From: Cloeon dipterum
Lineage: Eukaryota > Arthropoda > Insecta > Ephemeroptera > Baetidae
Direction of reading: 5' to 3'
Assembly (NCBI RefSeq): GCF_949628265.1
Contig: NC_088787.1
Span: 29,440,501-29,504,500 of the forward strand
Length of the DNA: 64,000 nucleotides
The position numbers and the translations under genes are program-made. Under the pieces are notes generated by a model. It saw nothing but the letters and a program-made list of their open reading frames with translations. It did no database searches and had not been told where the DNA came from. Position 1 is the first letter of the stretch. Each line of letters opens with the position of its first letter. This document shows, piece by piece, positions 45,100 to 62,081 of this stretch.

Positions 45100-48000
45100 C
45101 TACAAATCATCTTCGTCAGACATAAAACCACCCTCTTCTGCCAACTTTCGCATTTCCTGTACGAGCGTTGCAGTTCCCTTACCAGTCATTGCAGAAATTG
45201 GAACAATCACAGATGGCAATGGCTCCCCAGGGTAAGCTAGAGTTTCTTCAGCCTCCTTCATTAGGAGAGGAAGATTTTCCTGCAATATATATTCAACACT
45301 TTATTTATTGAATTAATAATAAATGGTGGCGAATTAGATATTTCATTGGTGTACGTACGTCAATTGTAATTTTGTTTATATTTGATTAGAATTGGCTTCC
45401 AGAATAAACTGATGCTTTAATTTTCTTGAGTAAATTTCTACAATATTAATGATAGTGTCAATTTTAAAAGGTTCCAAAATTCTGACCTTCCAAACTTAAA
45501 TATTTAATTTAACAGTACTCTCCGAAAAAATCATAGTAATACAAACAAAATCTTGAAAGAGCACTAACCAAAACAACTCAGATTTGGTACATACCACCCC
45601 AGAATAATTTCAAAAATAAATTTTTCTTGTAAAAATAAAAAAAATTTCACCTAAAAGGGCAAAAATACTGACAAGATTTCGACTTGCTCTGACAGCTAAG
45701 TCATATATAATAGTGATATATCGGGGACACGCGTTTTAAAAATAATACCTGCGCAAGGTTTTGGTCGATTTTATTCGCTGCGATGGCCCAAATTCTCTGC
45801 TGCGCAACCGTCTCGCTGTATTTTCGCAATTCGTCCCTCAGGGTGTACAGTTCGTCCAAGGGTTGGGGCCAGGGTTGGGCCAAGTCCACGACAAAGAGCA
45901 AGGATAAGCAGCGGGTCGAGTGCCGGAGAAACGCGTGGCCGAGACCTCGATTCACGTGCGCACCCTGAATCAGGCCTGGCAGGTCGGCAACTACAATTCA
46001 ACACAATCAGATATCATTTTAATCAACCATTGCTAGTGATGGCGCCTCACTGATCAACTTTCTGTAGTCGCTAAATGGAATCACTCCAAGGAAAGGACTG
46101 AGAGTGGTGAAAGGGTAGGAGGCAACCTTAGGTCGTGCCCTCGTCACCGACTGCAAAAGCGAGCTTTTCCCTGCGTTTGGAAAACCGATCTGGAAAATAT
46201 CTATGATCAGTTCATAAAAATAGCACGTGAAAAGGGAATTAGTTGATGAGCAATGAAGAGCTTGGTAACGCTTCGTATCCGTTTTATTATTATCAATCAT
46301 TCTGCACTATATACAAAAAGAAACACACTTTGTGTAAAACCTGAGACGCCACAACTTACGAAATGTATACCCCATAATGCGAACACAGTTCAAAATGCTC
46401 GAACTTAAAATTGTAACCTCCACACGCTTGAATAAGAATCACAAAGAATTAGATACAGGATCACTGGCACTTGATCATCCTCTTTCAATCACTGTAAAAC
46501 TGGAATGAATTTTAACAAACGTGTGTCAACAGCAAGCCTCGATCTTTTTCTGATTTAATGCGCTTATAAAGTTTTTTACAAGATAACCAAAGTAAAATTT
46601 AAATTTGAGTTTGGAAAATTAACACATTAATTAAAAAATGAATCCAAAGTGAAGTCACATGATGATTTGTGGCTCTGTGACCGAGGCGGCGATGCTCTTG
46701 TGAGGGAGCACCTGGCCCCCGTTGATGTACAATTCGTCCTTGACAATCACGTCTTCACCAAGCACCGTGTTGTTTTCCATGCGCACCCATCGTCCTACTA
46801 CCGAACGCCAGCCAATTATACAACCTTCCAACCAAGAGTGTGAGCGAACAGTTGCACCCTGAAATTTTAAAAGGCATTTAAACTTAATAATCAGTGTTGT
46901 GGCTTAATTAGTTTTGTCTTGTTTTGTTTGGAAGAATTTTTATAAAATTCTAACAAAAGAAATCGTTGGAAAAATATAGAGCTGCCTTTTTTTCTTACCC
47001 ACAAAAAAATAGTTTCTCTTTTCTTTGAATTTAAAACCAAATTTAAAAAAAGCAATTTCATGTGAGCACAATTTAAATTGAAATTATCTGCATTGATGCG
47101 AAAATTGAGCAATATAATTTCAAATTATTTTCTAAGCTGGTGGTTACCTTGAGTATGACACTTCGTTTGATACAAACGCCATCCTCAACGCTGACGTCAG
47201 GTCCAATAGCAACATTTGGTCCGATTCGGCAGTTCTGACCGATCCGCGCAGAAGGGTCCACAAGTACATTGCCGACAACTCCTGGGCCGTTGTACAGCGA
47301 GTCAGGATTGCTCTGTCGAACGGATCCTAAGTAGAGTGAGAGGCCAGTGAGGAAATCACGTGGCTGGCCGACGTCCATCCAAAAGCCGGGCAGTTCCATT
47401 GCGAACAACGCCCCATCAGCAGCCATGTGAGGAAACACCTTAAAATTTTAAAGAAAATAGTTAATCAGGAAAATGAGAAACGTCTAATTTTGATACATTT
47501 TAAGGACATTTCTCTCGTTTTAGTTCAAGCTTTTAGAAAATTTACTTTTCAGTGTTGGTAATTTGTCTAGATGCCAACCAACAATAATTTTAACTTTGAT
47601 TTTGTCAGCTATTTTTATTTAGCTAAAAAGAATATGCATAAAAATTTACGCACAAACAAGGTATGACTCCAAGGCACCAAACCCTTTTGTTAAATAAAGA
47701 CTTAAAAATATCTTTTGCCTTAAGATATTCACAAAAATGATTTTCTACCTGCATCTTAGACATTATATGAATGGAATTACCTCTTTTTCAATGGAGGTTG
47801 GTTTCAGTTCTATCCGATCGAGCACTTTAGGGCTGAGGATGTACATTCCCGCGTTGATTTTGTTGGAGACAAACTCCTGCGGCTTCTCGATGAAGCTTTT
47901 AATGCGGCCTGACAATCCGTCGTAGACGACGACGCCATACTTGGAGGGCTCCTCGACCTTGGTCACAGCGATGGTGCCTTCGCCGCCATGTGCCTTGTGG

Positions 48001-50837
48001 AAGGCGATCATTTCAGTGAAGGGAAAGTCGCAGATGATGTCGGAGTTGAGGACGAAAAAGGGCTCGTTGCTCGGGGTGAGCAGTAGCGATCTGGCCAGGG
48101 CTAGAGGACCGGCAGTTCCCAGAGGCTCAGACTCCAAGGAGAACAACAGTTCCACCTGTATCAATCGAATGGAATGAATGAGACATTTTTTATTTGTACA
48201 TTTAATTTCTATATACATGTTACATGGCTAAGAACATTTATATTTTCGAAAATAGCCATTAAGAGAATTCAAACAAGAATTTTAAAATTATGAAAAAATG
48301 TGAAGCAAAAATTGAATGTTCTTATTATGTTGTTGTAATACAATTATTTCAATGTTGCCAATTTCAGCGTTTGGGGGAAGCCATTGTAAAATTGTACCGA
48401 TTTTTCTCCCTTTAAATATTTTTAACTATAAATGAAAATTAATTTAAAAAATCCTCTTGATTCTGAGTTAATATATTTTCTTTATAGGCCCCATTCTTAC
48501 CCTAGAAGAAAATATTTTCTATTAATTTTATTGAAAACAATTAACAACAGTTCTTTTCATTTGAAACTACGTTCAAATTTAAAATAGGTGATAGAACTCG
48601 GTATTTTAATATGAATGAATAGAAATTATGCTCATTTTGTGACGGTGTTAAAGGAAAAATCCTTGACATTCTGATTCACCAGATAGCGCCCACCTCACTT
48701 TATCTCCAAATTGTTGACCGTTCTTTCACGTGAGAAAATAAAAATAAAACACCACAAATACTAGAGCTGTAATTTCATTCTTAAACTGCGCTTTGTGCTG
48801 ATTTTTTCTGAACCAATACGTAAAAGAACAATCATTGAAATTTTTTTAATTTATACCAATGTCAGTCATTTTTTAAAGCAGGCTGATTTTGAGTAGTTTT
48901 TACTGCACCGAAAATTAGTAAAAAGATTGCAGTATACGTGGCTATACCAGTCTGATGTAGTTATAACTATCAAGATTACATATTTCAATAGCGAAGATAG
49001 ATGTCGATGAGAAAAAAATGATCAAAAAGGATTATATTTGATTCATTTATAATTTTAAAATAATAGTCCATAGCAATTCTGGTTATGAGACTATGACTCG
49101 TGGATAATGTACAAAAAACGCAGAAGCTAAAAAATAAAAATTACCCCTAATTTGTCGGCTTCAACTGTAAGCTGCTGCTCCATCTGCTCGGCACGGTAGG
49201 AAACGGCGAGGATGACCCTGCGGACGCCGGCCTTTACAAGGGCCTCGATCTGGTGCAACAGCATCGGTTTGTTGGCGAACTCAACCAGCGGCTTCGGCCT
49301 GCTGAGAGTCAGGGGCCGCAGCCGCGTGCCGAAGCCGCCAACCAGGATCAGGGCGGTGCTCATCTCGTCGGGGTTTTCAGGGTCAGGGTACTCCTTGTGA
49401 GACTGATTGTCTAGTTGCCGACGTCCACATCAACTGAACGAACACGCCAACAGTCCTTGCGTCAACAAAACACAGCTGACGAGACAGACAGCGATTCACT
49501 GGCTTTAACAGCGTAGTGTGTCCTCCATAGCCACGCCCATTCAGCCCTACCTCATCCAGCGTCGCGCACGCACGCACGCTCAACCCACACAACACTCCGT
49601 CGCATTTCTCATTATCTCTCTTTATGATATTATCCCCCTTTGATACTCAGTTAGACGCCACTAATAAATTTTATTATATTTAATTCCGTTCTTATTTATT
49701 TACCAATGGGAGTAGCCATTTTAAAATCAATTAATTAATCAATTTTAAGTCAACATTTTGAGAACAAATTTTGCGTTTTTGAAGTTGAATAAAGCTTGTA
49801 CTTTTAATTAATTATAAAATATTTGAGGCAAAAGGACAAGAAAAATCGCAAAGAATATCAATTCATTAAATTAAAAAATTAATTAGTTAATTGGGTCAGA
49901 TTTTAAGGGTGAAAATTTCACACTTGTCTTGTCTAAAACCGTATATGAGAAAAAACTGACAAAAAAATTGTGGAACAAAAAACCCTCCAACATGAAGAAA
50001 AAACAAGTTTTTTACCAGTCCGATGTGTGCTACGCTCCTGATTTCCAAAGAAAGCACCTTTTGGTCTCCTTCCGTCCCGTGTTCTGCAACTTCAGGCGAC
50101 TGATTTGTGTCTGTGGCAAAGAAACGATTGCCTTTGCCTCCAAGACCTCCACGCGCTGCCACAAATTGCGACCCTTCTTTTGCCAGGTCAATAAGTTCTT
50201 TTCCATTTTCCTTCACTACCGTCCCTATTGGTACCTGAAAGGCAAGGCCAAAGTTAATATTAATTTTTAGCCAAAAAGAGTAATAATTGTTTACAAAGCA
50301 AATTAGTGTATCTAATAAAAATTTTACATGAGAACTGCATCAATATATTAATTTTAAAATACATATACCTTGATGACAAGAGGCTGCCCATTGGCACCAT
50401 GCAGGTCTTTGTTCTTGCCCTTGACTCCAGGAGATGCTCTGAGATCAGTGGTAACACTGTGGAGATCCTTGACATTTGTACACGCCTGAATAGCAGCATT
50501 GATTTTAATTTTCAGCAGAATAATTAGAAAACTAAAGTATTTTTACCTGAAAAATGACATCACCTCCGTTGCCTCCGTCTCCACCGTCAGGCCCGGCTTT
50601 GTCGTTGCTCCACAGCTGAGCGAACGACACGCAGCCGTCTCCACCCTTGCCTGCAAAGGCCTTTACCATCTTGAAGTCCACAAGAGCTTTAGGAGGAATT
50701 AAACTCTGCGACTTTCCTTTCTTCACGCGCAAAGCTTTCGCACCGCCCTTGGAAGATGCAAATCTCGCAAAATTTGTCAAGTTTATCAACGTCCTGCACG
50801 CACAAAACATTTTGACGGTTTGAATGGTCCTAAACAT
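45100..50837 (-). CDS. MTG2: Mitochondrial Obg-type GTPase (ribosome-associated GTPase 2)
   Basis: Obg-family GTPases help assemble the large ribosomal subunit; MTG2 acts in mitochondria. Minus-strand exons: 50837-50547, 50485-50369, 50234-50016, 46189-46051, 45990-45749, 45279-45100, giving 395 residues. The N-terminus ([17 protein letters not shown], Arg/Ser-rich, few acids) looks like a mitochondrial presequence. The glycine-rich Obg domain follows ([43 protein letters not shown]). G-domain motifs: G1 [14 protein letters not shown]2 in [13 protein letters not shown]3 [21 protein letters not shown]4 NKID, G5 SAMTGKG. All phases close. The third intron (46190-50015, 3.8 kb) contains the whole GMPPB gene on the same strand. 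The intron 45280-45748 is AT-rich and empty. Confidence 0.95.
46655..49363 (-). CDS. GMPPB: Mannose-1-phosphate guanylyltransferase, catalytic beta subunit
   Basis: Makes GDP-mannose from mannose-1-phosphate and GTP in the cytosol, for N-glycans, O-mannose and GPI anchors. Exons (minus): 49363-49145, 48155-47781, 47438-47148, 46858-46655, giving 362 residues (human 360). The nucleotidyltransferase start shows the signature [19 protein letters not shown]. It is followed by [60 protein letters not shown] and [15 protein letters not shown]. The C-terminal left-handed beta-helix has [20 protein letters not shown] and ends [10 protein letters not shown]. Introns: 48156-49144 (989 bases), 47439-47780 (342 bases) and 46859-47147 (289 bases), all AT-rich and non-coding. 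The gene lies wholly inside MTG2 intron 3 in the same orientation. Confidence 0.97.
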
Positions 50838-52850
50838 GCTGATGGTATTGTAATTTCAGTCCCCTTCTTGGTTCTTCGGCTATGACAGAAAGTAGTGCAG
50901 AGAGGCTCGACAGTCTCACTCAGTGAGAGATGAGCGATAGTGAGCGAGAGCTAAGTTTCAAATCAAAACAAACCCATGCTGGGAGATTCTTGACCAATCA
51001 AAACAGACAGACAACTGAACCTCCAAGAGCGCGAAACTTGTGCTACATGATGAGATGAGCAGTCGCTACTTGATTTAACGCTAAAAAAAGCTAAAAAGCG
51101 AAAAATGTTATGCGATCCTGGTTAACGCAAGATTTTATTAATAAATTATCACTTCTAGTTTTTAAAGATCAAAGGAACATAAGAGTAGGGTAAAAAAGGG
51201 ACGAAATTTGTGTTTTTATTTGCTTCCCACAAGGAAGTCAACTTATTGTTAATACAGATGAAAAAAATCTACATATTTGAAGAAATGAAGAGATTTTTAT
51301 AGGAGAAATATTTTCTGTGAGGTATTTTTATATAATTATTTATTTTGAAATATTTATTTTCGTTTGTTTAAAGATAAGTGCAATAATAGTATTATTGAAT
51401 ATATGAATAAACCTTCCCTCGAAGCGGTCAAACGTCATCTTCATTTTGCTCATTTATATGTCACAGCCTTTTATTTCCCACCAATAGCATACATGTTCGG
51501 ACTCAAGTATGTCCATGTACACCTCAATGAAGCTTGATCCTCACAATTATTGACATGCAAGTGACTTTTTTAAAAAGAAAAAAACAATGAATCTTCCAAT
51601 AAAATGTCATATGAAAAATATGAGGAAGTGCATTTATTCTATTAAAAATTATTAAAAAAATTAATAACTCAAATGAAATACGGGCATGTCTTGTGTCTGT
51701 TTCTCACGTTCACGCTTTTACTTGCAATTGAAATTTCATGAATATATTGATTAAATAAAAGATGGTAGAGTTGGAAATATTTTGAATTTTATTTTGCATT
51801 ACAATTCCTTTTAACATGCATCAAGATTTTCTTATAAAAATTCTTTTATTGTTACAAGACTTAACAAAAAACTGTTGGCTCGTTTTTATTCAAAAATTTG
51901 AAATAATTAAGCTATCCTGGCAAAATATTACAACTAGATTCGTTTCCAATATTTTGGTGCACTTTAAGTGCAAATCAAAGACGCCGCAAACTCTGCTGTG
52001 AGTGCCAAAATTTATCAAGCTATATATATAGGGTAAGTATCTAACTCATTTATGATGATTTCACAGATTGAATGAATTTTGTTTGCTTTAAACGAGGTAA
52101 CAAGATGCTTCCCGCGTTTTGATTGTAAAATACACATAAAAATATTAGTTTCTAAGATAATTCTCGCCAGATATAAATTTTGAAATATAAACATCAGCCT
52201 AACCATAATATATAATTTTGAATTATATATCCATAGAGCGAATTAGTTTTGACTCAATTACAAATATAGCTCAAGGAGTACAAATATTTTTTATCATTTA
52301 TATAATATCAACAACATTATCAGTGATGAATCCTTTCCTTCCCATCCACTCCAAATTATTTCAAACACAACAACAACTCAACCGAGTAAAAACTATTTTG
52401 TAGCTCTTGGAATGAAAAAAATACCTCTCTACATACACACAAAATTGGGTAAATATAAAACTATTTTAAGCACTTAATCTTTAGATCAAAATGGATGGAA
52501 TCGTTACTAAAAAATAATCAGTTTCAAAAAATATAAACTGCAGCTATTGGATAAAATTAATGTTCCAAAAGCCAAACTATACTGTCGTGGGACTAAGAGA
52601 AAACAGCAGAAAAAGTTCCAGTTCGTGAAAGGCAGAAATAAAATAATAAGAAATATAGGGAATGGTAATAATATCAGTGTCAGCCAGTCTGTCACAACCG
52701 CATTGTGCCTTCCTTACATCATGAATACTGTTGAATTTTGAAAAATTAACTTCTTCAGTGAGAAAAAAGAGGTTGAGACGATGACTGGGATTATACAGCG
52801 CGCAGAATATAATTATGTCAATGAAACGTCTGCATTTGGCTCACTATTGT
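50838..52850. other. Intergenic, MTG2 start to neurexin IV end
   Basis: The right part of this interval is downstream of neurexin IV and probably includes its 3'UTR. The left 150 bases beside MTG2 hold its promoter; repeated GAGCGA/GTGAGAG-like strings occur at 50905-50955. The rest is AT-rich without a recognisable gene. An AT-only run sits near 52018-52030. Confidence 0.5.
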
Positions 52851-55800
52851 TTAGATATAAAACTCTTTCTTCTGGCTCACTTGGTGACCTGTAGCTGCGT
52901 TGATAATGGCTTCATCAGGGTCAAGCGCCTGCTCAGCTCCTTTGTCCTCTTGGGTCAGGTACTCACCCTTGTGCCGGGCCACATATCGACCGATAAGCAG
53001 CAGCATGACAAGAAGGGCAAGGAAAATCAGCGCCAAAACGCCTGGAAATCAAGGTTTAATTTAATTCCTTTTTTTGTATTACACAACGGTATATGTCATC
53101 TTTCAAACCGAACATTTATGCAAAATTGAAAACAGGAAAAATTCCAAAATGGAAATAAATGATACCAAATTTTGGTAAGGACCAACCGGACCAATTTACT
53201 TGTTGATGGTTTAGTGATTTAGGGAAATAATTACAACTACAATATAATTTTAAACTTACTTCCAAGAACAGCTGAATTTGTGCGATTGTAAGCTGCCTCC
53301 AGTTTGTCCTTGTCGACATCAGGAGGAGGCCTAGTCTCCAACTCTGGGGGAGGATGAGTGACTGGCTCAACTCCACAAAAGTCCTCGGTCAGTGTGTCTG
53401 CAAGCGTTGCTTTCAGTTATAAGGCAATCATATTTAAGACTTCAAATAAATCACCTCCACCAGATCGAACATTGGCGGGGCCGTTTTCCTGGAACGCCAA
53501 CTTCAAGGGATAGATGTCGTCAAACTCAACTCTCGAAACGCAACCGACAAAGCCCTCGGTCATGGATTCGTTTTTGCCAATATACATGTACTGGATGTTG
53601 TTGAATTGCGCGTCAGCTGACTGCTTGATGTTGAATTTGAACTCTTGGGGCTCGTTTTCATCAACCTTTAGCAGCGAAGAAGGTTACAAATTGGAATATA
53701 AATGCGCCAATTGCAACATACCTGCAAAATGAGCCTCGAACCAGAGTCTCTTCTGGTGAGGCGAACGTCGTGGTACTGCCCAAGACCAAAGTTGTGGCCT
53801 TGATAGATCAGCTCTTGTCTTTCAAAGCCAAAATCTAAGACGACTCTCAAGTGACCTAAAACGGAAATATAATATGCCGAAAAATGCGCAGGCAAATTAA
53901 ATTACCGCTGTTGGAAACTGCAATTGTCATGTATTCGCCAGTGATGTTTGAGAAGAATCCTAGAAGGAAACCTTTGGGGTTTGTAGTGGTAAATCCAACC
54001 CTGATCTTTTCAGCAATGGTGGAGCGCCAGCTTCCCATGAAATCGTACTTAATATACGAATTAGACCTGAGATTAACTCCGATTTCTGTAGACGAATTCA
54101 CACAAATTAGATTTAACTTGGATGGCACAAATAAACCTCACCATCGGCACAAATAGGTCCTTTGAACGCGGTCCACCTGCAGTCGCAGCTGTATGAATCG
54201 AACCGTTCCCAACAGGTGCCATTGTTCAAGCAAGGATTGCTCTCGCATTTGCCCACGCAGCCAGGAGCAATGCCTACCAGGGCAAGGAAAAAATTAGCAA
54301 CTTTAAAAATCCTAATAACACAGAGAGCCCACCGTATAGTCCTCTTTCTGCGTATTTCTTTAGGTCAACAAGCTCTCCGTTGAGCAGCAGAGCTCTGATG
54401 CAACCAACAAATCCATCTCTGTAGTCAACTGTAGATCCGATGACAAGGTCAGAAGTTAGGTGGAGAGCTCTAACTGGACCGGGAGGTTCCCTAACTCCAC
54501 TCTTGAAAACACCATCAACCGCCATTCTCGCTTCCTTGCGATTTCTTTCGATCAGCACAGAGTGCCAGTTGTTGTCAGCCAATCGATATGAAGTATCAGT
54601 TGTCACTGCCATAGAACCACTTCCAGCCTGATACTGGAACTGCAGTTGATCTCCACCTTAAAATAATTATATGTTAAAACTTGGCAGGCAGAAGGCAGAA
54701 AAACATGACATGATTTGCAAACCAACTCATATATCAATTATTTAACGATCTTATAATAAGATTTTAAATTAGTTTGAAGCTATGATTAAATTTGTACCAA
54801 TGATAGACAACTTGATGAAGTCAGATTCTCCAGTGCTGTGCAGAATGACAGCATTGTCAATGGTGGTCTTGAACTCAAAGTATATATCTCCAATGTGGCC
54901 CATGTCAAACGTGGGTAGATTAATGCTTGCATCAGTGATGCGGAAGGTGACAACGTTGTTGAACAAATCTAAAAGATTAAAATCACTGTGTGAGAAAACA
55001 ACGCGTATATCCCAAATTAAAACTTACTGTCTCCTTCGCATGCCAAGGGCCCCAAAGTGAACATCCCTTCCTTTTCATCAAGAGGAGTGCCAGTGTCTCC
55101 AATTCTCATTTGTTTCACTGGCAAATGCTCCATCTGGGTGATGTCTCCAGAGTCAGCTGACCAAGAGTCTAAGTCAGCGTCGCAATTGCACGACCTGAGG
55201 CATTTTGACGTGTAATTTTAGATTTTCAGGTGTAAGCAAGAAACTTACTTTCTCTCGTCAATGCAGTTGCCCCAGATACCACATTCGCAGCTACGGGAAC
55301 CAGGCAGTGCACCTCCCCAGTAGTCCATCTTTTGGTTATTCTTCGACACCCACCACGAAAACGGACTGAATGTTTCCTGGGTTGCTGCAAAAATCCAATA
55401 TGAATTTTTTAACTGTCACAAATAGCTTTGGTTCTTTTAATTGGTAATCACACAAGTTTGGAAGGCTTAAAATTAAAAATAAAATACTTCCTAGATATTA
55501 CATTTCATAAGATTTCCAATTTCTTCATCACACCAAATTAATTTAATTTTTCTACCTAATTAAAGAGTATAGTCCTATACAAAAGATTATGTCATGGTGG
55601 CTTACCTGGAGAGTTAAAAAGCTTTGAATGTCTGCAGTTGTAAGTTATGCGCTGGTGACAATTTGTTGACCTGTTCATTAGCGCCTCAATTTGGAAATTG
55701 CTTGCTTCATAGACTATGTCCTGCACATGGATAAACAGTAAAAATTGGTGATCATAGGTAAAAATTATAATTAAATACTTGAATATAGCTTCCAGGCTCC

Positions 55801-58800
55801 TGGAATCCATCAACCCTGGTTGGCATTTGGTTATGGTGACCAACAAGAGTTAAAATTCGACCATCAGCTATTAAAAAAATGTCATTTCTCAATTAATCGC
55901 ACAAAAGGAATAACCTTACAGAAAAATTCACAAGTCACTGGGAATGGATCAAGAGGTCCACTACCGTCGACATCAATCAATATCCTGGAGGTTTGGTCAA
56001 CGTGATTTTTATCCTTGTATGCAGTGCATGAGAGAGGATGGAGCGCTAAAATTTAGGAAATGAGAGGAAAGAAAAGCACATTTTCGCAATTTTCTTACAA
56101 ATGTGGCAAACTTCACCAGAATAGCCAGTGTCTACGCATTCACAGAAGAATTCCTTTGAGCTCTGTTTGCAGTTTCCTCCGTGTTGGCAAGGATTTGGGT
56201 TGCAACGGTCAATCATCTGGCATGAGTCAAACACGACCTCATCTTTGCAGCAGTACTCCTGCGTGAAGTAAAATCAGAAATAGTAAAAACAAAACCTCTA
56301 ATCATATTTAGTTACATTATCCTTCCAGTCGACTGGCGGCCTGTAGTTGCCGTTGATGGATATTCTTCTCATACATCCAATGAAACCAGGAGAACCAGAT
56401 CTTCCTCCTTGAAGACAAAGATTGTACGTTAGCAAAGATTTATTCAATGGTCAGTTTAACTTAAGAGTACCTGCTATCAAGTAGTGACTGCCAGTTGAGA
56501 ATTTGAGCTGTTTCGAGGTTCGCATTGGTCTTTCATCCACGTTCAAGATGATTGAATTGGGACTCATAGTTAGAATAACTTGATGCCAACGTCCATCATT
56601 GAAAGTTTCCTCGGGGAAGTTGTCAAGGATAGTTTTGGGCCCATTGACCTTCAATTCAATTTTCAATCTTCCCTTTTCAAGGTAAAGCTAAAATCAAGGA
56701 TACTCGTATATAACCTAAGCAAACCAATGGGGTTCAAAGTACCATGAAGTAACCGTCAGAGGTGAACTTGTGGTGGACCAGCATACCAATTTCTTCGTAA
56801 GATCGGAAAGAGAGAGACACATTCAGTGTTTGGACACCCTCATAACCAGCCAAGCGAGCGTAAGAGTTACGTGTCAAGAACGTGACAGGAAAAGATTGTA
56901 CTTCCTGCAAACAGACGTAAGGTAAAAAAGGACAGCTAGTCAATTAACACAAAAACCTACAGGACAGCTGAAGAGAGTGTTGATTCTCTCAAAGTGGAAG
57001 CGGTCATCATCCTCAGGAGGGTTTTTGACCGCCCTGATGAAGTTTGTGGCATTCAGGTACAGGTTTTCAACGCAGCCCGTAAAATTTCGGTTGACGACAA
57101 GACCATCTTGCTGGTTGGGCACTCCGCCAATAAAAATCTAAAATAGCATAGTTTAAAATCAATATTCACCACAGACCGACCAATTTATTACGTCTCTGTT
57201 TAAATTAAGTCGGGAAAATTCGCCTTTGATTTTGCTCCGCACAACAACTCGATCCACGGAGAACATGATGTCCCGCTTGTTTCTTGACACAACCACATCA
57301 TGCCATATATTATCGTCCAGCAGGCTTCCCACCGACAAGCTTGTTACAACGCCAGCTCCTGTCGTGGTTTACCCATTTAGAATGGCGACGCCAATTAAAT
57401 CATTCAAAACTTACCAAGATCAATGTTCAGGAGCATTCTGTTGTCCCTCATTTGAAGAGCGTAGTAGTCACCCTGAGAGCCTCTGCCATACAGAATGGCG
57501 CCATCTGCGTGATTTGTTTTGAATCTGAACCTGATGGTTTCTCTTGAGGCAGAAATGGGGTAACGAATCACATCCCATCGGACGTAGCTGCTGCCATTGA
57601 AGTGGAGGTTGTCAGCCACTGAAAGCGATATTGAATATATAATCTGAACTGATCAGTAGAGCTTGCGCATTATTACAATAATCACAGCCGTAGAGCTCAG
57701 CACGGAGAGAAATCCTCTCTCTCCACCTGGTGGGGTTGATTCGGATGTACTGAGCAATAATTGGTACTTCGAAGTTATTTCGATGGATGTCATCTCCGTT
57801 CCAGTTGCCAACAAATGTCTAAAATTAATGATATATGAATTTCAATGTGCGATGAAAATTAGCATACTATAATTAACAATTTTGTGATTTTTACACTCTT
57901 AATTATAAGGTACGTAAATTTTAACCAGTAATTTTTTGGCAATCAGCTTATGGAAGTATCACTTATTGAAAATTAGATAAGATGGATCAAGTTACGATAC
58001 TTAAGTTTTCAATTCGCACTTTCAAAAAGTTAACTTTTATACAAACTTAATTATTATTAACTAATAGTTTTCAATTGTGCCACACTCTTCACAACACCAG
58101 TTAGTTAGTCTGTGCATTTTGTGAGTTAGCAAGGGTGCAGAGGCTAGAAGAGAATTGGATAGTCAGCGAGTGGTTACCTGCGGCATTCCAGAGGCAGTGA
58201 CATATGACCTCCAATTTTCACCGTCATCACCATACTGTAGGATGAATTCAGTGACATACTCTTTGGCGCGTGCCCTGCCAGCAGTGGCTACCGCTGTCAC
58301 TTTTTTGCGAGTCGGCAGCTTGAACCGCACCCACTGGTTGTACGAGCTCTCATCAGATGTCCATGCCGAGCCCCCTGAAGAGTCCATGGCCACCACCGCC
58401 ACCGTCAAGATTAGTAAAGTAAAGAAAGTTGCTTTGTTGGTTAGTGCAAGAGTTAGAAAGAGAGAGTCATATTGGCAATTGAGGAAGAATTTGTTGATTT
58501 AGCAAAGCGATTTTGGAATACATATTTATTACATTTTGGCTCCTCTTCTAGTCAAATAGATAAATTATTATTTACACAAGCGCAAAGTACTGATGCAAAA
58601 GCAATGGCATGCATGTTCTCACGTTCAACAAATGATTCATTTGTTCTCACATTCTGCAGTTACAAACCTTGACGTTGCCGCCGCCTTCCTTGTAGTCTGA
58701 GTAGTCAAGCCCATTGGTACCGTAGCTGATGGTGTACTCTATGATGTACTCGCTGTGCTTTGGCCTGCCCTTGGTGGCAATGGAGGTCACATTCTTTGGC

Positions 58801-60531
58801 TCCTTCAGGTCTAGCACCAGATACTGATCCGTGTCAGAGCTGGCCGCCGTCCACGCACTCAAACCTTAATTTGCGTACACACAAACACACTCAGGTGGAG
58901 GAAAAACTTCAAGAGTGGCTTTTCATGCCAATGGACCTGGCTCTTTCTTCTTAAAATAATTTTCATTTGTAATTCAAAAGATGGAAAATTCCCAGCATAA
59001 CACCACTCTTGATACGCATTCGGTAAATTAAGTAAAAAATAAAAATTGGATGCCTGACTTTTCTACTTCTCACATAACATCAAAAAAGAGGTTGCAAAAA
59101 GTATGGAATGTTGTGCCTTACAGCCAAATTACCAACTATAGGGAGCTGAAACACAAATATTTACCATCGATTTTTGCCTGTTCAGGGCCTCGATCTCGGA
59201 GAGCTGAGGTGGCTGAAAATTTTGCCCATTCCAGAAGCGGCTCATTGCAGTCGTAATCGTCTACAAAATAAAACAATTAATTTATTTACTCTTTGTTTGT
59301 TGACCTTTCATTCTACTGACAGCGAGTCACTTTAGTTAATGTCGATGACGGCGCGTGTTTGTACATGACAATATGGAAATGTCTTTTATCACGATAAGTC
59401 TATAAATTATTATCTTATTATTCATACATTATATCAGTCTAATTTATTTTAACGCCTAAAACTACTTCCCGATTTCAACCAAAATAAAACTGATAAATAT
59501 AATGTCTGGAAACTATTTATAGAAAGCTCAAAGCAGAATAAATGTATTGTATTGAGTGAATATACTAAGTATTGTTCCTTGATGTAGTGCAGGTCATAAA
59601 GTAATAAAGATTAATACTAATATTAATCATCCGAAAACTATAACTGAAAAAATGTATTCCTAAATTCGTCGGTAAAAATCCAGGATAACAAATAATTTCA
59701 ATTATTTTTAAAATAATAAATTATATATATTACATAACATAAACATAAATTACGTTCAATGGTACGAATTACATAATTAGATTAATTTTATGATTTATAT
59801 TTACTTTGAAATTATGTATGACCGATTTTTTATTAATCTAAAAATTATTGCAGTTGAAAAATGTATTATTCTTACTAAGTGTTTGTTTATTTGTCGTTAT
59901 AGTTTAAACAAGGGTTGAAAATTGCACAGAGGGTGAAATGAAATGAGGATTGGTGTTCATGCGCAAATGAACGTTGCGCCTCGTGGCTGTTTCGTGTTTC
60001 CGCAGCTTTGCTCATAAAATATTTAAATTACGCCAGGCAGAAAAATTGAAATTTCGCATATTATGTGCACAGCACGCAAAGCAGTCAGGTCGTTATTCAC
60101 ACCTTCAGGGCCACACCCCAATCTTCTAACGGATAGGTTTGGGTTGAAACATTTTAGTAATTGGAAAAGTCGGTTGTACTGAATAGGACCGCATTGGTTT
60201 GTGCACGTGCCAAATTCGACCGGCTTACTACAAGCAATCTATTTTGAGGCACTGTTTAGACAAAACCAGAATAATGCTCTGGAATGCAGCGGAAAACAAA
60301 GCGAAATCGGGTATGAATCACTGCGAAAACAAGCTTTATGGGCGGTAACGTTCGTAAACACAAGTATTCTAACGATTATTTTTCATTAATTACGAATGAT
60401 TACAACATAAAAAACTGTTTCAGGGGTGGAAAAACCAATAATATAAACAATTGAAAAATCTTACCAGCCTGGACTGCAGAAAATATCGACAAAAACAAAA
60501 TAAATACAGGTAAGAGCTTTACGGCGTCCAT
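52851..60531 (-). CDS. Nrx-IV: Neurexin IV (CNTNAP/Caspr family septate-junction adhesion protein)
   Basis: A transmembrane adhesion protein of septate junctions and of neuron-glia contacts. Exons (minus): 60531-60465, 59260-59165, 58864-58668 (or 58374-58178), 57818-57677, 57618-57415, 57358-57192, 57137-56961, 56904-56743, 56687-56471, 56407-56316, 56258-56099, 56045-55920, 55867-55779, 55720-55606, 55384-55249, 55194-55028, 54968-54798, 54656-54333, 54273-54142, 54085-53906, 53855-53722, 53665-53455, 53397-53260, 53041-52851. Total 1264 residues. Order: signal peptide (MDAVKLLPVFILFLSIFSA), discoidin domain, LamG1, LamG2, EGF (NPCQHGGNCKQ), fibrinogen-C-like region, LamG3, EGF (NPCLNNGTCWERF), LamG4, Pro-rich stalk, one TM helix (VLALIFLALLVMLLLIG), and a short tail with a 4.1-type juxtamembrane basic stretch and the C-terminal PDZ ligand EFYI. 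This is the family architecture in full. Confidence 0.97.
58100..58109 (-). promoter_or_regulatory. Candidate tandem STAR sites downstream of exon B
   Basis: The transcribed strand reads ACTAACTAAC, two overlapping ACUAAC motifs, starting 69 bases after the exon B donor. With the upstream copies, this brackets exon B almost symmetrically. Function is inferred from the motif and from known HOW control of this gene in Drosophila. Confidence 0.5.
58178..58374 (-). CDS. Nrx-IV: Neurexin IV alternative discoidin exon B, mutually exclusive with exon A
   Basis: Exactly the same length (197 bases) and phase as the exon 293 bases upstream, and homologous along its length: GSAWTSDESSYNQWVRFKL, KVTAVATAGRARAKEYVTEF, LQYGDDGENWRSYV. 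Acceptor ACTCTTCAG, donor CAG/GTAACC. In Drosophila Nrx-IV, two mutually exclusive exons at this same place give glial and neuronal isoforms; the same choice is inferred here. Confidence 0.92.
58410..58445 (-). promoter_or_regulatory. Candidate STAR (HOW) splicing sites upstream of exon B
   Basis: On the transcribed strand ACTAAC (58445-58440) and ACTAAT (58415-58410) lie 65 and 35 bases before the exon B acceptor. STAR-family RNA-binding proteins such as HOW/Quaking bind ACUAAY. The second copy may also be the branch point, as the stretch between it and the acceptor is G-rich and a poor pyrimidine tract. Confidence 0.5.
58668..58864 (-). CDS. Nrx-IV: Neurexin IV alternative discoidin exon A
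   Basis: The upstream member of an exon pair, 197 bases. It encodes LSAWTAASSDTDQYLVLDL, then NVTSIATKGRPKHSEYIIEY and ISYGTNGLDYSDY. It enters in phase 1 and leaves in phase 0. The acceptor is ATTAAG, with a weak pyrimidine tract; the donor is AAG/GTTTGT. Using this exon or its partner keeps the frame, but using both or neither breaks it. Confidence 0.9.
59261..60464 (-). other. Neurexin IV intron 1
   Basis: A 1.2-kb AT-rich intron between the signal-peptide exon and the first discoidin exon. No gene is seen. A less AT-rich stretch at 59930-60350 may be regulatory. Confidence 0.6.
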
Positions 60532-62081
60532 GGTGTCATGCTCGAAACTCAACAATTATTTGCACTAGGTGGCACCACCACCGCTAGTAAGTTTCTATTT
60601 GGGAAGATGGCGCGAAATATTTCCTGGAAATTCCTTCCATCCGCAAATTAAATCAAGCTGCTCAAATTGTATTGAAAAATACACATACATCTTATTTTTT
60701 ATTTTTGTTCACACTTCATGGAAAATTTTAAACAAAATTTTGCACACCCCCAGTTAATCTGCAGTTGCTACCAATGATAACTTTTAGATTATGTTAATAA
60801 GCAAGAAGCAAGTTTGAGGTCTGAAGAACTTCTCTCCTGACGTCGTTCTTGATAATGATTTTGTGATTTTTGTTTTTTTGTTGTTCTTTTCAAGCAAGAA
60901 TAAACAACAATTTTATATCATATATGAAATAAATAAAATCACAATTTATTCACACTATATTGTTTTATTGTTACTGACAATTCACTAATTCACACACGAA
61001 TTTTAAATTAAACGATCATTTCATCTATCTTTTTTAAAGATGTTGTGCTTTGTAGCTGTTACAATTATGGAGAACAGAAATTGATGCTTTGGCATATCTA
61101 GAGGTCTCAGCCAACCAAGGTACGCCGCGCCAGCCAGTTGATCATGTGTTCAGCCTCCTTGACTTCAGCTAGCATTATGCTGCGTCAGCCACGTGCCAGC
61201 CGCCATTAAAGTCGGAAAAATTGAATGTACAGAAGGGACAAATTGGCAAACAGCTCTTTGAGCTGTTTAAGCATAAGCACTATTCAATTTAACTTTTAAA
61301 AACGGGCCAGCTGCTCCAGCTGTCAGATGCTGAATGCTCAGCCACCACTAGGGCAATATTCAACTAACAAGCCAGTGCAGCAAACAGCCTCCTCTAAAGA
61401 TCGCGGCTGAGATCTCTACATATATCTTATCTTTAAGAAGAAGAAAGCCAAAAACAAATTCATATTTGAGGTTCGCCAAATTCCACACAGCCCATGAAAA
61501 ATGCTAAAACAAAGTTGAATTTAAAAAGCAATTGAATCAAGAAGCCACAAATCAGAAGCCTCATTTATACACATTTAAACATGCATCTCATGGATAAGTC
61601 AAGCGCTAGAAATTTGATTAATAACATCAAATAAAACAAAAAGCTAGACAAAAGAGTTTCGAGAAGAGGTTCCAACATTAATTTTTGCTTGGACCACACA
61701 AGGTGCGCTGTTTCCAACTCTACAAAGTGATGAAGACTACGAGACTACTGCTTTTTTGCTAGGACTAGAATGCATTTTGGCATAACAAACTTGTCGAAGC
61801 AAAATACGTAGACGGAAAGCAAAGGACAAATTGGTGCTGAATAACTTGAACAACATAGCTTAATTAGAGATTGACAATGAGGACAGCTTTAAATTATTCA
61901 ATCAGTGGACAGGACTTGTGAGTTGAACCTGTCAGCGTCAATCATACACCAAGAAAAGGGGATGTTAGCTATTACCAATTTTCCTTATCAAACGTCCAGA
62001 GTATGAAAGATATTGCTCTAGAAGATATCAAAAAAATTAACATGTACACCAAGATTAAAATTCAGTCAACTGGCGATTCAG
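60532..62081. other. Intergenic, FBXO28 end to neurexin IV start
   Basis: No coding gene. The right part is downstream of FBXO28. The left part holds the neurexin IV promoter and 5'UTR. The stretch 61095-61422 is an inverted-repeat element (listed separately). Confidence 0.5.
61095..61422. mobile_element. MITE-like element with 18-base terminal inverted repeats
   Basis: The left end TATCTAGAGGTCTCAGCC (61095-61112) and the right end (61405-61422) are inverted copies with two mismatches. The interior of about 330 bases is more GC-rich than its flanks and has no open frame of note. Its end and a GCTGCGTCA-N-CCAC core recur at 16034-16151. Target-site duplications are not clear; TA at each end would fit a Tc1/mariner-like or similar element. 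Structure only; the family is not identified. Confidence 0.5.

Follow-up and report, generated by a model that had tools for sequence, protein, structure and literature searches.

Two exons of identical length, 197 nucleotides (nt) each, lie in tandem on the minus strand of the window (the whole 64,000-nt stretch of DNA analyzed here), where they appear to encode alternative versions of the same segment of a neurexin IV (Nrx-IV) protein. The question raised by this locus is whether the two exons are used strictly one at a time and, if so, how the choice between them is made.

The first of the pair in transcript order, exon A, occupies positions 58668..58864 of the minus strand, and the second, exon B, occupies 58178..58374 of the same strand. 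Borders of both were read directly, translated, and aligned. Exon A has the acceptor ATTAAG/GT and the donor AAG/GTTTGT (the slash marks the exon border), while the corresponding sites of exon B are CTTCAG/GG and CAG/GTAACC. Both run from phase 1 to phase 0: each borrows one codon base from the constant exon upstream (59165..59260, minus strand) and ends on a whole codon, and each can be joined in frame to that exon on one side and to the constant exon starting at 57818 on the other. Exchange of A for B replaces 65 complete codons and the final two bases of the one before them, in the middle of a discoidin domain that begins in the upstream constant exon and ends in the downstream one (57677..57818, minus strand). 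Borders of the constant exons were picked by reading frame and a splice-site matrix. At the 3′ end of the downstream exon (57818–57677), two candidate donors, GTGATT and GTAATA, lie 9 nt apart at window positions 57676–57685. The latter was chosen because it alone retains the terminal cysteine of the discoidin domain, a conserved residue.

The peptides encoded by A and B share 23 of 66 residues in an ungapped alignment. Their BLOSUM62 score of 116 stands far outside the distribution obtained from 5000 shuffles (mean −55, s.d. 16, maximum 5; z ~10.6). At the DNA level just 85 of 197 positions are identical, so the duplication that produced the pair would be old. No third copy of the exon was found in a six-frame scan of window positions 52500–61000, where the next best score was 36 vs. 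119 for A and B. Across the genome, the DNA of the pair was found at a single location, and a protein query with the pair returned these same exons plus one match of 27% identity on contig C4; both counts are lower bounds, since the genome searches score the best candidates only. The initial annotation, which had placed the two exons here, given both a length of 197 nt with identical phases, and described them as homologous but clearly diverged discoidin segments, is exact to the base in the former respects and well supported in the latter.

A length of 197 nt is not a multiple of three, and the consequences for the reading frame are easily followed. If A and B are joined in succession, a TGA is met within exon B. 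If both are skipped, the frame set by the upstream exon runs into a TGA ten codons past the junction. By contrast, the joined coding sequence, modeled as far as position 55613, stays open for 668 codons whichever of A or B is included. The length of the exons makes double use unproductive, but does not alone stop the spliceosome from making such a transcript. Exclusion could be pictured at two levels. At the first, transcripts with both exons or neither, which carry an early stop as read from the sequence, would be degraded. At the second, a regulator would choose A or B before that fate arises. The exchange would then place two different adhesion surfaces on an otherwise identical septate-junction and axo-glial protein.

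The gene to which the pair belongs extends over 52851..60531 on the minus strand. Its exons were modeled from 60531 to 55613, and the 3′ part is represented by a set of open reading frames (ORFs). The coding part of exon 1 (60465..60531, minus strand) contains the start codon and, as judged by eye, a signal peptide (MDAVKLLPVFILFLSIFSAVQA), and is joined in frame to the next exon by a GT-AG intron. Following the signal peptide are the discoidin exons, then laminin G, EGF, and further laminin G exons. Ten further ORF pieces were scanned, of which five matched laminin G (one of them just below the cut-off), one matched EGF, and four matched nothing. The last ORF, for which no Pfam or PDB match was found, seems by eye to encode a membrane-spanning segment together with a short tail that ends in KKEFYI. 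Nrx-IV/CASPR proteins are expected to span the membrane and to carry a PDZ-binding end on a short cytoplasmic tail.

Completion of the discoidin domain depends on one member of the pair. The Pfam F5/8 type C model scores 96.4 bits with A and 103.1 bits with B, compared to 34.8 bits with neither (cut-off 28.2). In the PDB, the discoidin domain of human CASPR2 matches both isoforms over its whole length, with 88.5 bits for B (E 4e-24) and 79.1 bits for A (E 3e-21). Coagulation factors V and VIII gave higher totals, but these are summed over two domains per chain; taken singly, their domains scored 42–64 bits with B and 44–59 bits with A in the three chains with alignments shown. Lactadherin, of which one domain is matched, reached 80.1 bits with A vs. 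79.1 for CASPR2, so this domain match by itself is not enough to assign the family. The best match of the first 668 residues is neurexin-1-alpha, by way of its laminin G domains. The predicted layout is of the Nrx-IV/CASPR type, because laminin G and EGF domains come after a single discoidin domain at the front. Adjoining ORFs on the same strand (47763–49429 and 49896–50855) seem to resemble a mannose-1-phosphate guanyltransferase and an Obg-type GTPase.

A pair of this kind is well known in Drosophila melanogaster. Exons 3 and 4 of its Nrx-IV gene are described as mutually exclusive, with exon 3 used in septate junctions and glia and exon 4 in neurons, and the choice is said to involve HOW and Cdk12; the primary source is Rodrigues et al. 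2012, as conveyed by the available portions of later articles (PMC11893892, PMC4267209, PMC8891220). Similar Nrx-IV isoforms are reported from five more insects in an excerpt of one of these, a likeness that stands by report rather than by sequence alignment (PMC8891220). Common to Drosophila and the present locus are the same gene, two exons used singly, and two resulting isoforms. The Drosophila isoforms are further characterized by distinct adhesive properties and a STAR-protein regulator, whereas here we infer both the cell-type use and the role of HOW. Exons were matched between the two species by their order. All five of the additional insects are, we presume, Holometabola.

Taken on these grounds, A and B are very probably the mutually exclusive discoidin exons of insect Nrx-IV and the counterparts of Drosophila exons 3 and 4. 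Judged by exon order alone, exon A would correspond to exon 3 (the septate-junction or glial form) and exon B to exon 4 (the neuronal form). The initial annotation had argued that inclusion of both exons or neither shifts the frame, that the pair must be used one at a time, and that Drosophila has the same kind of glial and neuronal pair. The first of these points was borne out by the early stops, the second draws support from the frame arithmetic together with the documented behavior of Drosophila exons 3 and 4, and the third is on record in the literature, as far as the accessible text of the sources goes (PMC11893892, PMC8891220). The pair is a further instance of the documented Nrx-IV switch, to which the motif cluster described below is a modest addition. 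Between them, the exact exon borders, the frame argument, and the candidate HOW sites make the Drosophila barrier-isoform model comparable in another insect.

What might make the choice is suggested by a cluster of CTAAY motifs (CUAAY in the transcript) that straddles exon B. Three of these (TCTAAC, ACTAAC, and ACTAAT; 58410..58457, minus strand) lie 35–77 nt upstream of the exon B acceptor and are candidates for HOW sites as well as for the branch point. Another three (GCTAAC, ACTAAC, and ACTAAC; 58100..58130, minus strand) lie 48–73 nt downstream of its donor and are likewise candidate HOW sites. Exon B has, in total, six CTAAY motifs within 100 nt, three per side, and exon A has zero within 150 nt. 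CUAAY is also the ordinary branch-point motif. The HOW consensus is given as NCUAACN, with ACUAAC bound at nanomolar strength, in the part of the source available (PMC12868882).

With 100-nt flanks, a span that was picked after the motifs had been seen, six or more CTAAY motifs occurred in 0 of 4000 dinucleotide shuffles and 0 of 20,000 mononucleotide shuffles. With flanks of 150 nt, the count was 16 of 4000 dinucleotide shuffles. Stricter motifs gave a similar result at 100 nt: five copies of CTAAC (2/4000 shuffles) and four of ACTAAY (1/4000). When the same frame was slid over both strands of the window, 41 of 127,200 placements reached six motifs, and all 41 represent a single cluster, that at exon B. 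Enrichment was weaker when whole introns were considered. For the intron between A and B, dinucleotide shuffles gave P = 0.0325 for ACTAAY and 0.067 for CTAAY, and for the intron between B and 57818, the respective values were 0.1035 and 0.016.

A plausible source of the regulator is present in the genome. One STAR-dimer exon above the family cut-off was found, on contig C4, and it matches GLD-1 and Quaking. A KH exon lies 7 kb from it on the same strand of that contig. Joined by position, the two would form one HOW-type gene that is likely the HOW orthologue.

Together with the Drosophila precedent, these observations suggest that the choice between A and B is probably made by HOW. In the model proposed here, HOW would bind the candidate CUAAY cluster around exon B and compete with SF1 for the exon B branch point. 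In glia and in epithelia with septate junctions, B would be blocked and A left for use, while neurons without HOW would use B by default. That such a block is the main route by which HOW acts is held more tentatively, at a little short of an even chance. Precedent comes from mammals, where QKI, a relative of HOW, represses exons in competition with SF1 at tandem ACUAAC branch sites, according to the accessible sections of one report (PMC13004596). An example from the same source is RAI14 exon 11, which resembles exon B in having two close ACUAAC-like motifs just upstream of an alternative exon. RAI14 exon 11 differs in being a cassette exon for which the function has been demonstrated, whereas the present exons form a mutually exclusive pair at which a contest between a STAR protein and SF1 would operate by extension. 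If the branch-point model holds, a cell-identity switch of insects would be linked to the mammalian contest between SF1 and Quaking.

The two halves of the cluster do not fit this model equally. The upstream motifs fit a HOW block on the branch point of B. The downstream motifs fit less simply: HOW may loop out B, or B may be favored in other conditions. In muscle, UACUAAY upstream of an exon is reported to accompany skipping and downstream of it to accompany inclusion, with the rule reversed in brain, in the portion of the source available (PMC13004596). By analogy with the muscle rule, the downstream trio at B would be predicted to favor that exon rather than block it, while the brain rule would predict the reverse.

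The best surviving alternative also involves HOW, but has it work chiefly by activating exon A, together with Cdk12 and Prp40, rather than by blocking the branch point of B. This is a serious possibility, although well below an even one. A review, in the passage available, credits HOW and Prp40 with binding to intron sequences and with promoting the use of exon 3 (PMC11893892), and the CTAAY motifs of the intron between A and B are also downstream of A, a position from which Quaking-type motifs can favor inclusion. Their spacing argues the other way, as these motifs are >200 nt from A and 35–77 nt from the acceptor of B, with none within 150 nt of A. Returning to the block on B, a bolder version makes the CUAAY cluster the conserved heart of the switch: dimeric HOW, bound across the tandem ACUAAC branch site and perhaps flanking B on either side, would loop out the neuronal exon or block it. 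This version is doubtful at present, though not far-fetched. If true, the branch-point contest between SF1 and STAR proteins would be the ancestral means by which insects choose between barrier-forming and neuronal neurexin IV.

The introns around the pair offer a further way in which exclusion might be achieved. Those flanking A and B are 300, 293, and 359 nt long (window positions 57819–59164), the next ten modeled constant introns are 52–63 nt each (55721–57676), and intron 1 measures 1204 nt. In place of HOW, the choice could in principle be enforced by introns that compete for RNA base pairing, as in Dscam, a mechanism reported for other insect exon clusters, judging from the part of the source available (PMC8042237). 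Among the three introns of the pair, the best duplexes do not exceed what shuffled sequences give, the same strength being reached in 31, 18, and 16 of 60 mononucleotide shuffles, a test that leaves room for short conserved pairings, and the explanation is very unlikely. Scarcely credible is the remaining proposal, that one member of the pair is a duplicate in decay or serves as an NMD switch and that one isoform alone is productive: the exon A acceptor (ATTAAG) is poor in pyrimidines and, under the splice-site matrix mentioned above, has the lowest acceptor score in the modeled part of the gene, with GTTTGT as the donor, but A and B share the same open frame and length, and with either of them the Pfam domain scores far over the cut-off, which is not expected of a decayed copy.

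The mutually exclusive arrangement was also viewed against the rest of the genome (190 Mb in 10 contigs). PF00754 (discoidin) gave 10 matches, a lower bound, and three of these are Nrx-IV's own. Another three resemble, we believe, DDR. None of the matches outside this gene looks like a second Nrx-IV. Two PF00754 exons ~1 kb apart on contig C4 (~32.545 Mb) were considered as another pair of the A/B kind and rejected, as they look like successive domains, probably of a two-domain protein. A scan of viral contigs for the pair returned five pattern matches, none of which was a relative.

The genome contains other features that bear on the identity of the host. Neither (TTAGG)6 nor (TCAGG)6 was found as an exact repeat in the 10-contig assembly, and TTAGG is reported to be absent in mayflies in the excerpt available (PMC8977481). 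Chemosensory exons detected included 1 OBP match and 5 OR matches in an exon-by-exon search that undercounts such genes; 191 OBP and 49 OR genes are reported for Cloeon dipterum in the available portion of a study that also places the appearance of ORs in insects (PMC7250882). PF07898 has 31 matches in the genome, 27 of which are on contig C5, and 21 of those fall between 12.28 and 12.69 Mb. This model presumably represents the Osiris family. Osiris and Orco are, to our knowledge, specific to insects, and the presence of an Orco exon and the PF07898 cluster indicates that the host genome is that of an insect. The Orco exon is at ~29.672 Mb on contig C2, which also carries the window, ~170 kb away. 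It has eight matches in the PDB, six of them named Orco or odorant co-receptor and one named odorant receptor only, along with a weaker match to MhOR5.
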